This document shows, in pieces, positions 2,808 to 6,477 of a stretch of DNA of 33,600 nucleotides. The notes below the pieces were generated by a model, which searched no databases, had not been told where the DNA came from, and saw nothing but the letters and a program-made list of their open reading frames with translations. How positions within the stretch are numbered: position 1 is the first letter of the stretch; every line of letters starts with the position of its first letter. The stretch covers positions 1 through 33,600 of the forward strand of contig VGYY01000008.1 of assembly GCA_016872815.1 (NCBI GenBank), written 5' to 3'. This stretch comes from Planctomycetota bacterium. Lineage in GTDB: Bacteria; Planctomycetota; B15-G4; SIAN01. A program made the position numbers and the translations under genes.

Positions 2808-3887
2808 TCATTCCATCGACGAGACGGCGGCGACGAGGCAGCCCTGCGAAACCGAATTGAGCGGCTCCTTGCCGAGGCGCACGCCCTTCAGCGGGATCGG
2901 CAGCTTCACCTTCTGCACTTCCTCGCGGAACACCTCGATGAAGCCCTGGATGAGCGAACCGCCGCCGGCGCAGACGATCTCGACCGGCTCGCTGAAGCTC
3001 GGCAGGTCGCGCCCCATCGCGAGGCGGTTGCGGATGTTCTGCAGGGTGTAGGAGATCAGGTTCCGGTAGTAGATCGCGATCGCCTCCTGCTCACGGCCCT
3101 TCGGCGAGCGGATGTCCATCCCGCTCTCCTTGATGAAGGTCACCTTGGAGGACGGCAGGCCGAGGACGGTCGCGGCGTTGCCGTCGATCCAGTCGCCGCC
3201 GCGCGCCACCGAGAAGGTGAGCGCCGCGATCGTCTTGTACGCGACGCAGACGTTCACCATCCCGCCGCCGAAGCTGATGCCGATGCCGGTGAATTCCTCG
3301 GCCGCCAGTTCCGCGAACGTGACCGCGTGGCCCTCGTTCATCGGGGTCGGGTTGTAGCCGAGCTTCTGCAGCATCCCGGCGAACAGCCCCTGGTGGTAGA
3401 CGATGTTGTTCTCCTTGTCCACCGACTCGGCGGGGACGGAGAAGAAGCACGGCTCGTTCGGGACGCACGGCTCGCCGAGCGTCTTCTTGATGATCATCTG
3501 CATCATCGGCAGGGCCTCCTTCTCCTGCGAGGAGATGAGGCCGTCCTTCATCGGGCGGCGCGTCGGCCGGCCGAAGACGTTCGCCAGCTCGAACGCCGAG
3601 GCGCCGAGCACGATCAGCGAGTTGTCGTGAACCACGTAGGGGACGTTGAGCCGCGTCAGCATCGAACGGCTGTGCACGTCGCCCTGGATGTCGAGGAAGG
3701 CGTTGCGCTCGCAGCGGACGACGATGCCGCCCTTCTGGTCGCGCACCGCCGCGAGGATGTTGGCCGTGCCGATGTCGAGACCCTTGCCGGCGAGCTTCGC
3801 CGTCATGGCCGGTCGGCCGCCCACGGATGCGGTGCCCGTCGCGCTCCCCGCCATTCCCTCGCTGCCGGTCATCTCTGCGCTGCCCAT
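2808..3887 (-). CDS. Actin/Hsp70-fold (ASKHA) ATPase, MreB-like, divergent
   Basis: Phosphate-1-like 'GLDIGTANILAAV', phosphate-2-like 'GIGISFGGGMVNVCVAY', adenosine-motif-like 'VCAGGGSLIQGF'. Start at MGSAEM with upstream GAGGGAAG. The longer ORF to 4868 overlaps the coiled-coil gene and is not needed. Confidence 0.75.
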   Translation of the reverse strand: MGSAEMTGSEGMAGSATGTASVGGRPAMTAKLAGKGLDIGTANILAAVRDQKGGIVVRCERNAFLDIQGDVHSRSMLTRLNVPYVVHDNSLIVLGASAFELANVFGRPTRRPMKDGLISSQEKEALPMMQMIIKKTLGEPCVPNEPCFFSVPAESVDKENNIVYHQGLFAGMLQKLGYNPTPMNEGHAVTFAELAAEEFTGIGISFGGGMVNVCVAYKTIAALTFSVARGGDWIDGNAATVLGLPSSKVTFIKESGMDIRSPKGREQEAIAIYYRNLISYTLQNIRNRLAMGRDLPSFSEPVEIVCAGGGSLIQGFIEVFREEVQKVKLPIPLKGVRLGKEPLNSVSQGCLVAAVSSME

Positions 3888-3967
3888 GTTGATTGCTTCC
3901 CTCGTGTCCCGTGGTTGCCTGGTGACGGCCATCCCAGTGCTTAGATCGGCACGGCGAATCCGGCGGC

Positions 3968-4756
3968 TCAAGCGCCGGGCTTCGCCTCGCGCAGGCTCTT
4001 CATCCGAGCCAGGGCATCGCTGACGTCGCTGCCCTTCCGTTCCTTCGCTTCGACCGCGTCGAGGTTGCCCTCGAGCTCGGGGATCGACTGGAACAGGCCG
4101 CTGATCTCGACCGGGGTCTCGTCCGGCGCCGCGGCGCCGACGTGGCGGCCGATCCGCTCGATCTTCGAGGCCAGCTCCGCGCCGAGCGACTCGATGCGCT
4201 TCTCGATCGCGCCGGAGAGCGGCTCCACCGCAGCGCCGACGGGCGGCGCCGCCGGCTCGGGGCGGGCGATGTCGCGGCGCAGAGCCTTCAGCTCGTCGAG
4301 CAGGTCCTGCGGGCTGCCGGCCTCGGCGCGCTGCCGCAACACGCGCAGCTCCGCTTCGAGTTCCGCGCGGCGCGCCTGCGCATCGACCAGCTGGTCGTCG
4401 CGCTCGGTGAGGCGCTGCTCGAGCTGCTTCAGCTCGGCCGCCTCGACCTCGAGCCGCGAGCGGATCTCTTCCATGGACTTCTGGGCGACGCCCTGCTGCT
4501 TCTCCATCTCCGAGCGCAGCATCTCGCGGAAGATGGCGGCCGAGTCCTTGAGCAGGTCGGCGCGCTCCTCGGGCGCCGCCGGCGACCCGCGCAATGCCAG
4601 CGCGCGGTCGACCGCCTGCGCGATCAGGTCGAGGACCTGGCTCGACCGGATCACCCGGACCTGCTCGAGGCCCTTCTTCCGAAGTTCGTCGAGCGTCGTC
4701 CGCGTCGCCCGCGAGGTCAGCTCGCTGCGGACGTCGCCAAGGAATTCGGTGGCCAT
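3968..4756 (-). CDS. Coiled-coil protein of unknown function
   Basis: Start MATEFLGDVRSEL preceded by GGGGAG. Long heptad-rich region 'EMEKQQGVAQKSMEEIRSRLEVEAAELKQLEQRLTERDDQLVDAQARRAELEAELRVLRQRAE'. Same strand as the ASKHA ATPase with an 80-nt gap. Confidence 0.75.
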   Translation of the reverse strand: MATEFLGDVRSELTSRATRTTLDELRKKGLEQVRVIRSSQVLDLIAQAVDRALALRGSPAAPEERADLLKDSAAIFREMLRSEMEKQQGVAQKSMEEIRSRLEVEAAELKQLEQRLTERDDQLVDAQARRAELEAELRVLRQRAEAGSPQDLLDELKALRRDIARPEPAAPPVGAAVEPLSGAIEKRIESLGAELASKIERIGRHVGAAAPDETPVEISGLFQSIPELEGNLDAVEAKERKGSDVSDALARMKSLREAKPGA

Positions 4757-4927: not shown

Positions 4928-4986
4928 CCGTCCGGTTCGCTCGAACCATGCCCCCAGCCAACATGGCGCCGCGCGTGGAAGGCCGA

Positions 4987-6477
4987 ATGGAGTGGATCGA
5001 CACCGTCCCGCTCCCCGCGCTGCGCGTCGATGCGCAGGGACGGGTCGCCGCCGCCAACCGGCTGGCCGCCAAGCTCTTCGATCGCGCACCCGCCGCGCTG
5101 CTGACCCGACTCGCCGCGGAACTGCGGCGCGAGGATCCGCAGGGGACGTCGCCCGCAGCGGAGATTCCGCTCGCCGACGGGACGCTGCTCCTCTTCCACG
5201 AGGGCGCCCTGGTGAGCGGGCTGCAGCAGCAGGTCTATCACCTGTCGCGCCTCGCATCGGCCGGCCGCCTGGTCGCGGTAGTCGTGCACGAGATCAACAA
5301 TGCGCTGTCGGGGATCATCGGCTACGCGCAGTACCTTCTGGCGCAACCGCTTCCGCCCGATGCCCATCGCGACCTCGCGCGCGTCCACGAGGAGGCGCTC
5401 CGCACCGCGCGCGTCGCCCAGAACCTGCTGCGCTTCAGTCGTGGCGGCCGGGGCGACCGCTCGATCCTGCGACCCGACGACCTCGTCGCCCGCTGCGCGG
5501 AGCTCAAGCGGCGCGACTTCGCGCTGCGCTCGATCAAGCTCGAATTCGACGTGGCCCCGGACCTGCCGCCGATCGAGGGCGATGAAGCGCTGCTCTCGCA
5601 GGTGCTGATCAACCTGCTGACCAACGCCCAGCAGAGCATCAGCGCGGTGCGCAACTGCGGCAATGTCTCGATCCGGGCGCGCAGCACCCGTCGCCGCGTG
5701 ATCATCGAAGTGACGGACGACGGACCCGGCATCCCGGCCCACCTGCGGGAGCGCGTGTTCGAGCCCTTCTTCACCTCGCGGCATGACGGGTCGGGCACCG
5801 GGCTCGGACTGACCCTGTGCCGGGAGATCCTCCGCGACCACAGCGGCGAGATCCGGATCACCCGAAGGGGGCCGCCCGGCGCGACGCTGCGCCTGTCGCT
5901 GCCGGCGGCCACCGCTGCGCCGCCGGCGCCGCTCGCGCCGCCGCCGCCGCGACCGCTCCCCATCAGCGGAAAGCGCGTCGTGATCGTCGAGGATGAGCCG
6001 TCGCTGCGCGAAGTCCTCACCCGGAGCTTCACCGGCCACGACAACCACGTCATCACCTTCGCCGACGGCGAGGACGCGCTGCCGTACCTGCTCAGCGAGT
6101 CGGTCGACCTCGTGATCAGCGACATGCGCCGGCCCGGACTCGACGGAATCCGGCTCTACGAGGAGATCGCGCGCACGCGCCCCTCGCTGCTGCGCCGCAT
6201 CCTGTTCGTGACCGGCGATGCGCTCGGTAAGGAGACCGCCGCCTTCCTGCGCCGCTCGCGCACGGTCGCGCTGCGCAAGCCGCTCGATCTCGACGAACTC
6301 GTCCGCGCCGCGCGCGCCATCGTCGAACAGCGGGAACAACAGGGCGAGCTGTTCGCGCCGCCGGACGCCAAGGAAGCCGACGCGGAAGGCGCCGCGGCGG
6401 CCGCCGTCCGGGCCGCGACGCCATCCGTCACGGCCGCGGCGGCCGGTCCGATCGTCGAGCGCGAACGCGAGGCGTGA
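4987..6477 (+). CDS. Hybrid sensor histidine kinase with C-terminal receiver domain (NtrB/PAS-like N-terminus)
   Basis: H-box 'VVVHEINNALSGIIGYAQ', N-box 'LINLLTNAQQSI', G1/F/G2 'DDGPGIPAHLRERVFEPFFTSRHDGSGTGLGL', receiver 'VVIVEDEP...LVISDMRRPGLDG...VTGD...LRKPLD'. ATG 4987 has GGAAGG upstream; ATG 4948 is an alternative start. Confidence 0.9.
   Translation: MEWIDTVPLPALRVDAQGRVAAANRLAAKLFDRAPAALLTRLAAELRREDPQGTSPAAEIPLADGTLLLFHEGALVSGLQQQVYHLSRLASAGRLVAVVVHEINNALSGIIGYAQYLLAQPLPPDAHRDLARVHEEALRTARVAQNLLRFSRGGRGDRSILRPDDLVARCAELKRRDFALRSIKLEFDVAPDLPPIEGDEALLSQVLINLLTNAQQSISAVRNCGNVSIRARSTRRRVIIEVTDDGPGIPAHLRERVFEPFFTSRHDGSGTGLGLTLCREILRDHSGEIRITRRGPPGATLRLSLPAATAAPPAPLAPPPPRPLPISGKRVVIVEDEPSLREVLTRSFTGHDNHVITFADGEDALPYLLSESVDLVISDMRRPGLDGIRLYEEIARTRPSLLRRILFVTGDALGKETAAFLRRSRTVALRKPLDLDELVRAARAIVEQREQQGELFAPPDAKEADAEGAAAAAVRAATPSVTAAAAGPIVEREREA

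Follow-up and report, generated by a model that had tools for sequence, protein, structure and literature searches.

What does a planctomycete gain from an actin-like ATPase encoded next to a coiled-coil protein, and does this pair form a filament system separate from wall elongation? The pair lies on the minus strand of contig C8 (VGYY01000008.1) of the 4.2-Mb assembly GCA_016872815.1 from a Planctomycetota bacterium (SIAN01); the window, i.e., the whole stretch of DNA that was analysed, covers positions 1-33,600 of this contig. As originally predicted, two adjacent genes on the same strand are separated by 80 nt (3888-3967), and the coiled-coil protein, referred to here as the adaptor, is encoded upstream of the ATPase and contains the segment LDELRKKGLEQVRVIRSSQVLDLIAQAVDRAL that was quoted in that prediction. 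The features of the locus are as follows:

2808-3887, minus strand: volactin-family actin-like ATPase (P0001), 359 aa; coordinates include the stop codon
3252-3281, minus strand: phosphate-2 loop of the ATPase, GISFGGGMVN; S205, G207, G209, M210 and N212 are invariant
3765-3782, minus strand: phosphate-1 motif of the ATPase, GLDIGT; D38, G40 and T41 are invariant across 56 volactins
3895-3903, minus strand: GAGGGAAGC, which by eye looks like a ribosome-binding site and precedes the ATPase start by 7 nt
3968-4756, minus strand: coiled-coil adaptor of 262 aa, encoded by the leading gene of the pair; coordinates include the stop codon
3983-4096, minus strand: C-terminal tail of the adaptor, LFQSIPELEGNLDAVEAKERKGSDVSDALARMKSLREA, a candidate volactin-binding element (profile A3)
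4319-4573, minus strand: residues 62-146 of the adaptor, its long helix/coiled coil, modelled as a helix by AlphaFold2 with a block pLDDT of about 71-94
4586-4756, minus strand: N-domain of the adaptor, residues 1-57 (alignment A1 and phylum search)

Because close relatives of the two proteins are encoded by neighbouring genes in two further genomes from this genus (86-89% identity for the ATPase and 71% for the partner), both open reading frames are conserved genes rather than chance frames. A scan of genome contigs with one protein gave only two close relatives, both in Planctomycetota MAGs, one of which is labelled Baikal-deep. No promoter or terminator of note was found at the pair. A divergent gene at 4948-6477, which starts ~190 nt from the adaptor start, encodes, as read by eye, a histidine kinase that has a receiver-like domain at its C-terminus.

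Family, fold and nucleotide site of the ATPase

The original prediction described the 359-aa protein as a divergent, uncharacterised ATPase of the actin/Hsp70 (ASKHA) fold. The fold is backed by Pfam, by a confident AlphaFold2 model and by Foldseek; the family, however, is not uncharacterised. In the Pfam scan, residues 35-354 matched positions 3-321 of the Volactin profile (PF25216) with 276 bits at a cut-off of 35, and volactin has been studied in Haloferax volcanii (PMC10869688). On sequence criteria, the window ATPase is a member of a known family, Volactin, from a new phylum. It shares 41% identity with the volactins of Haloarcula (over 332 columns) and Natrinema, both of which sit on megaplasmids.

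The AlphaFold2 model has an actin fold (mean pLDDT 90, pTM 0.87) preceded by 25 disordered residues. In Foldseek, MreB, Mbl and MamK were on top, with BeeR and EutJ close behind and PilM lower. Thus, the best structural match is not a non-polymerising ASKHA protein such as a reactivase or PilM, an outcome that the original prediction had set against its own reading. Similarly, the family profile matched MamK (3e-10) and MreB (3e-5) among PDB sequences, then FtsA, followed by EutJ and PilM, the latter with an E value of 0.3; phmmer with P0001 gave no pairwise match to PDB chains, i.e., the relation to MamK is seen at the profile level only. Because the reactivase, PilM and EutJ matches were weaker than those to MamK and MreB in both searches, we rejected these identities, and no pil genes, pilMNOP included, were recognised by eye around the pair. 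The ATPase has the actin fold in common with MreB, the structures of which are among its top Foldseek matches. In contrast to the MreB of the elongasome, it has an MreB_Mbl match of 29 bits (Pfam), as compared to the 366-bit cut-off of TIGR00904, and the same genome has a canonical mreB on contig C57, after which PBP2-like and RodA-like genes were recognised by eye. An elongasome identity was rejected on these grounds, and in agreement with the original prediction, no mreC, mreD or rodA was recognised in the window.

Volactin of H. volcanii (VolA, HVO_2015) is described in PMC10869688 as forming dynamic filaments in vivo, the tips of which contact the membrane; a role in cell-shape transition is ascribed to the family, its dynamics are likened to those of ParM, and its binding factors are given as unknown. 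The window ATPase resembles haloarchaeal volactin in matching the family over the full domain and in having the same S-x-G-x-G-M-x-N phosphate-2 loop. In this loop, Ser and Met stand where MreB and MamK, including the MreB and MamK-like proteins of the same genome, have Asp and Thr. Across the sampled volactins, the degenerate f26 group excepted, S-[FCY]-G-x-G-M replaces the DIGGGT of MreB and MamK, so that rewiring of the nucleotide site is a trait of the whole family, and because the usual Asp and Thr are missing, ATP turnover by volactin is not assured.

The adaptor and its tail

Type I partners, i.e., those of the volactin clade that includes the window ATPase, begin with an N-domain of ~55 residues, continue with a coiled coil that differs in length between proteins and finish with a ~39-residue tail, which ends roughly in GV...LaRlKsLr. 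The AlphaFold2 model of the adaptor has a mean pLDDT of 67, with low confidence except for the long helix. Weak Pfam and NCBIfam matches (SMC, exonuclease VII, golgin and others) were below cut-offs and were dismissed as coiled-coil noise.

Volactin was above cut-off in 111 of 294 sampled Planctomycetota genomes. In a quick maximum-likelihood tree with SH-aLRT support only, haloarchaeal, planctomycete and phage volactins grouped apart from MreB, with clades for type I (45 rows, support 100), type II (100), the degenerate f26 group (98), the haloarchaea and a large set of phages (63 rows, 99). In iterated HMM searches, 38/39 type I loci had a coiled-coil gene next to volactin, upstream in 37 and downstream in one; the exception (L108) reaches a contig end. 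The linkage, which the original prediction had left to be checked in relatives, is therefore conserved across the phylum despite the canonical mreB locus elsewhere. The tail profile matched 78/294 genomes, 77 of which also encode volactin (P about 2e-42 in a hypergeometric test that takes no account of how the genomes are related), and 34/111 volactin genomes are without the tail at threshold. In f24 genomes in which no partner stands beside volactin, a protein with N-domain and tail is encoded elsewhere in the genome. By comparison, the phylum-wide search of the 294 genomes found the N-domain in 128, including 34 without volactin, which rules out this domain as the volactin-specific part. Thus, the tail, not the N-domain, tracks volactin.

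A second actin of the same genome bears on this division of labour. On contig C52 (L002 1387-3482), a MamK/BeeR-like actin (MamK 5jyg, E 1e-75) is encoded directly downstream of a coiled-coil protein with an N-terminus that by eye resembles the adaptor N-domain and with a different tail. The phylum search for the N-domain gave a second match in this genome, its place not listed, in agreement with the C52 partner, and nine other N-domain loci also encode a MamK-like actin, in most cases directly downstream. Because partners of MamK/BeeR-like actins share the N-domain but the C52 tail differs, these observations suggest that the tail picks the actin and that the N-domain is for a shared anchor or cargo. 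The MamK precedent invoked by the original prediction is, therefore, apt. MamK and BeeR (PMC11929497) are among the solved polymerising actins nearest to the window ATPase, and MamK with the Mad coiled-coil proteins (PMC12748827) provides a precedent for an actin and coiled-coil proteins organising organelles. The window ATPase differs from MamK and BeeR in being a separate actin family with a different partner tail; with regard to the MamK setting, magnetosome genes were not noticed in the stretches of the genome that were inspected. One N-domain common to the partners of two actin systems is of interest in planctomycetes, the cell biology of which is known to be unusual.

Volactins are also encoded by phages. 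An alignment scan of IMG/VR gave at least 569 contigs with volactin relatives, the best 80 at 36-47% identity, and two huge uncultured phage records encode relatives as well. They reveal a phage actin family that has no counterpart in PHROGs v4; BFVD returned only Hsp70-type matches to the window ATPase model, none of them close. The tail hypothesis arose from one phage record (L169) and was then tested on IMG/VR loci from the best 80 of the at least 569 contigs, using a PSSM for which planctomycete tails were the sole training set. At ≥5 bits, 35/67 ORFs directly upstream of phage volactin matched, compared to 17/1007 other ORFs of the same contigs (P 3e-19), and many remaining loci have a tail-matching ORF at a greater distance upstream, up to about 3 kb. 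Within 3.5 kb, ORF tails of ≥10 bits were present upstream in 30/62 phage loci and in 0/68 downstream controls; at the loosest cut-off of 4 bits, 46/62 loci were positive, about a quarter thus being negative, and 7/68 controls passed. The phage tails exceeded same-composition shuffles in 31/67 cases at p < 0.01, and profile alignment related planctomycete and phage tails (P 5.6e-5). The phage adaptor N-domain aligned with its counterpart in the type II partners of planctomycetes (P 3e-5), and profile alignment did not relate it to the type I N-domain (P 0.14).

In Haloarcula and Natrinema, volactin follows the gene for a multi-TM protein (four TM segments by eye), the tail region of which matches the planctomycete tail model more weakly but beats shuffles with p 0.003 and 0.017, respectively, in what are two independent loci only. 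The window system differs from the haloarchaeal one in being bacterial and in having a coiled-coil partner without obvious membrane segments. Roughly, the common tail motif reads G-[VIL]-x3-[LAM]-x2-[LM]-[KR]-x-[LMAV]-[KR], and the adaptors that carry it beside volactins are of different kinds, i.e., a coiled coil in planctomycetes, a membrane protein in haloarchaea and a small protein in phages. We give even chances to a cross-domain adaptor code in which one C-terminal motif couples archaeal, planctomycete and large-phage volactins to unrelated, interchangeable adaptors, and in which many large phages encode a volactin cytoskeleton. These findings point to a plug-in volactin cytoskeleton previously unrecognised in bacteria or phages. 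The Volactin family itself is known; the novelty lies in its spread to bacteria and phages and in a modular partner with a volactin-specific C-terminal tail. A term search of the main texts of PMC10869688 and PMC10746226 returned nothing on planctomycete or phage volactins or the adaptor.

What the pair may do

Judged from sequence and structure models, the pair is probably a volactin filament system with a dedicated coiled-coil adaptor, and its most likely task is the positioning or anchoring of a cell structure, not wall elongation. The filament or positioning system of the original prediction is upheld as far as the actin fold of a polymerising branch, the conserved dedicated partner and the separation from the elongasome are concerned; polymerisation is extrapolated from the family. 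In the proposed mechanism, the ATPase would bind ATP and, as its predicted fold and its family suggest, assemble into a dynamic actin-like filament. The amphipathic C-terminal tail of the adaptor would dock on volactin, in line with their co-occurrence and with a tail common to unrelated adaptors, and the coiled coil may act as a spacer or dimeriser. The N-domain, also used by partners of MamK/BeeR-like actins, would hold the anchor or cargo. The filament would thereby position or anchor a cell structure, and wall elongation would be left to the separate MreB-RodA locus. The bacterial volactin branch now has a dedicated candidate binding factor, with tail-alike factors beside phage and archaeal volactins, and the tail-bearing adaptors are a direct, testable candidate for the anchoring of volactin filaments.

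The rewired phosphate-2 loop would also fit a non-polymerising regulatory or scaffold ATPase, i.e., a nucleotide-dependent switch for recruitment of the coiled-coil protein, e.g., to a pilus or envelope machine, as would the fusion of one type II volactin to a PilT-like ATPase and the degenerate f26 members beside SLBB-domain proteins. However, haloarchaeal members with the same loop belong to a family that forms dynamic filaments (PMC10869688), and the closest structures are polymerising actins, with PilM and EutJ weaker, making such a switch unlikely. If the adaptor instead linked a DNA-moving volactin filament to a DNA-bound factor, the pair would be a segregation system like that of ParM or salactin. 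Salactin, according to PMC10746226, is a dynamic haloarchaeal actin that has MamK as nearest relative and aids DNA partitioning; unlike salactin (PF25229), the window ATPase does not match that family, to which the MamK-like actin of the genome matches weakly. The ParM-like dynamics reported for volactin and the megaplasmid location of the haloarchaeal volactins agree with segregation; however, this location partly reflects the search of a plasmid collection. Moreover, centromere repeats as in ParMRC were sought near the operon and not found, the non-coding flanks having only two-copy repeats of chance length; Pfam found no DNA-binding domain in the adaptor; and no partition genes were recognised near the pair on what is a chromosomal contig. 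We consider segregation quite unlikely.

Because the tail is short and basic, part of its similarity could be convergent composition, and many loci are without it. The two genes might, therefore, be neighbours kept for expression only, with no physical interaction. Against this, the tail tracks volactin even where the genes are unlinked, phage ORFs with tails are enriched upstream over the downstream control, and many phage tails surpass shuffles of the same composition. Thus, we regard mere co-expression as very unlikely and favour the anchored volactin filament.

Variant volactin loci

Phage loci (L191-L270 from IMG/VR, L169, L170 and L271) usually have a small adaptor gene upstream of volactin. 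The order in several of them is ~460-aa protein, ~175-aa protein, adaptor, volactin, ~390-aa protein, Zn-ribbon protein and a large 'YAPPGVYT' protein. By eye, the cluster is tail-like, with weak family matches; a tail-sheath identity of the large downstream protein was rejected, as nothing in PDB matched it and the families that it matched, all weakly, are themselves of unknown function.

Among planctomycetes, type II volactins at L093, L094, L101, L110 and L126 have their own upstream partner with a MWIVKN-type N-domain and a helical region; these partners had no Pfam match where scanned, and their tails showed no clear relation to the type I tail (P 0.015). At L118 (1224-4199, G014), a type II volactin is naturally fused to a PilT-like T2SSE ATPase by a proline-rich linker. 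The degenerate f26 volactins (L096, L097, L115, L119 and L124) follow a gene for an SLBB-domain protein, as assigned by Pfam for L096 and by eye for the others; several of these SLBB proteins have C-termini that read like pLERALR.L, which gave no match to the type I tail model. Tandem volactins occur at L099, L111 and L112, where one copy is extended at both ends, by an apparently helical stretch at the N-terminus and by a long proline-rich stretch at the C-terminus that ends in PLIS or PLFS; the ParB-like look of the N-terminal extension at L111 and L112 was discarded for want of Pfam support. Finally, at L092 (1263-7139, G011), an open frame of 1959 codons with the partner N-domain lies just upstream of a divergent volactin.
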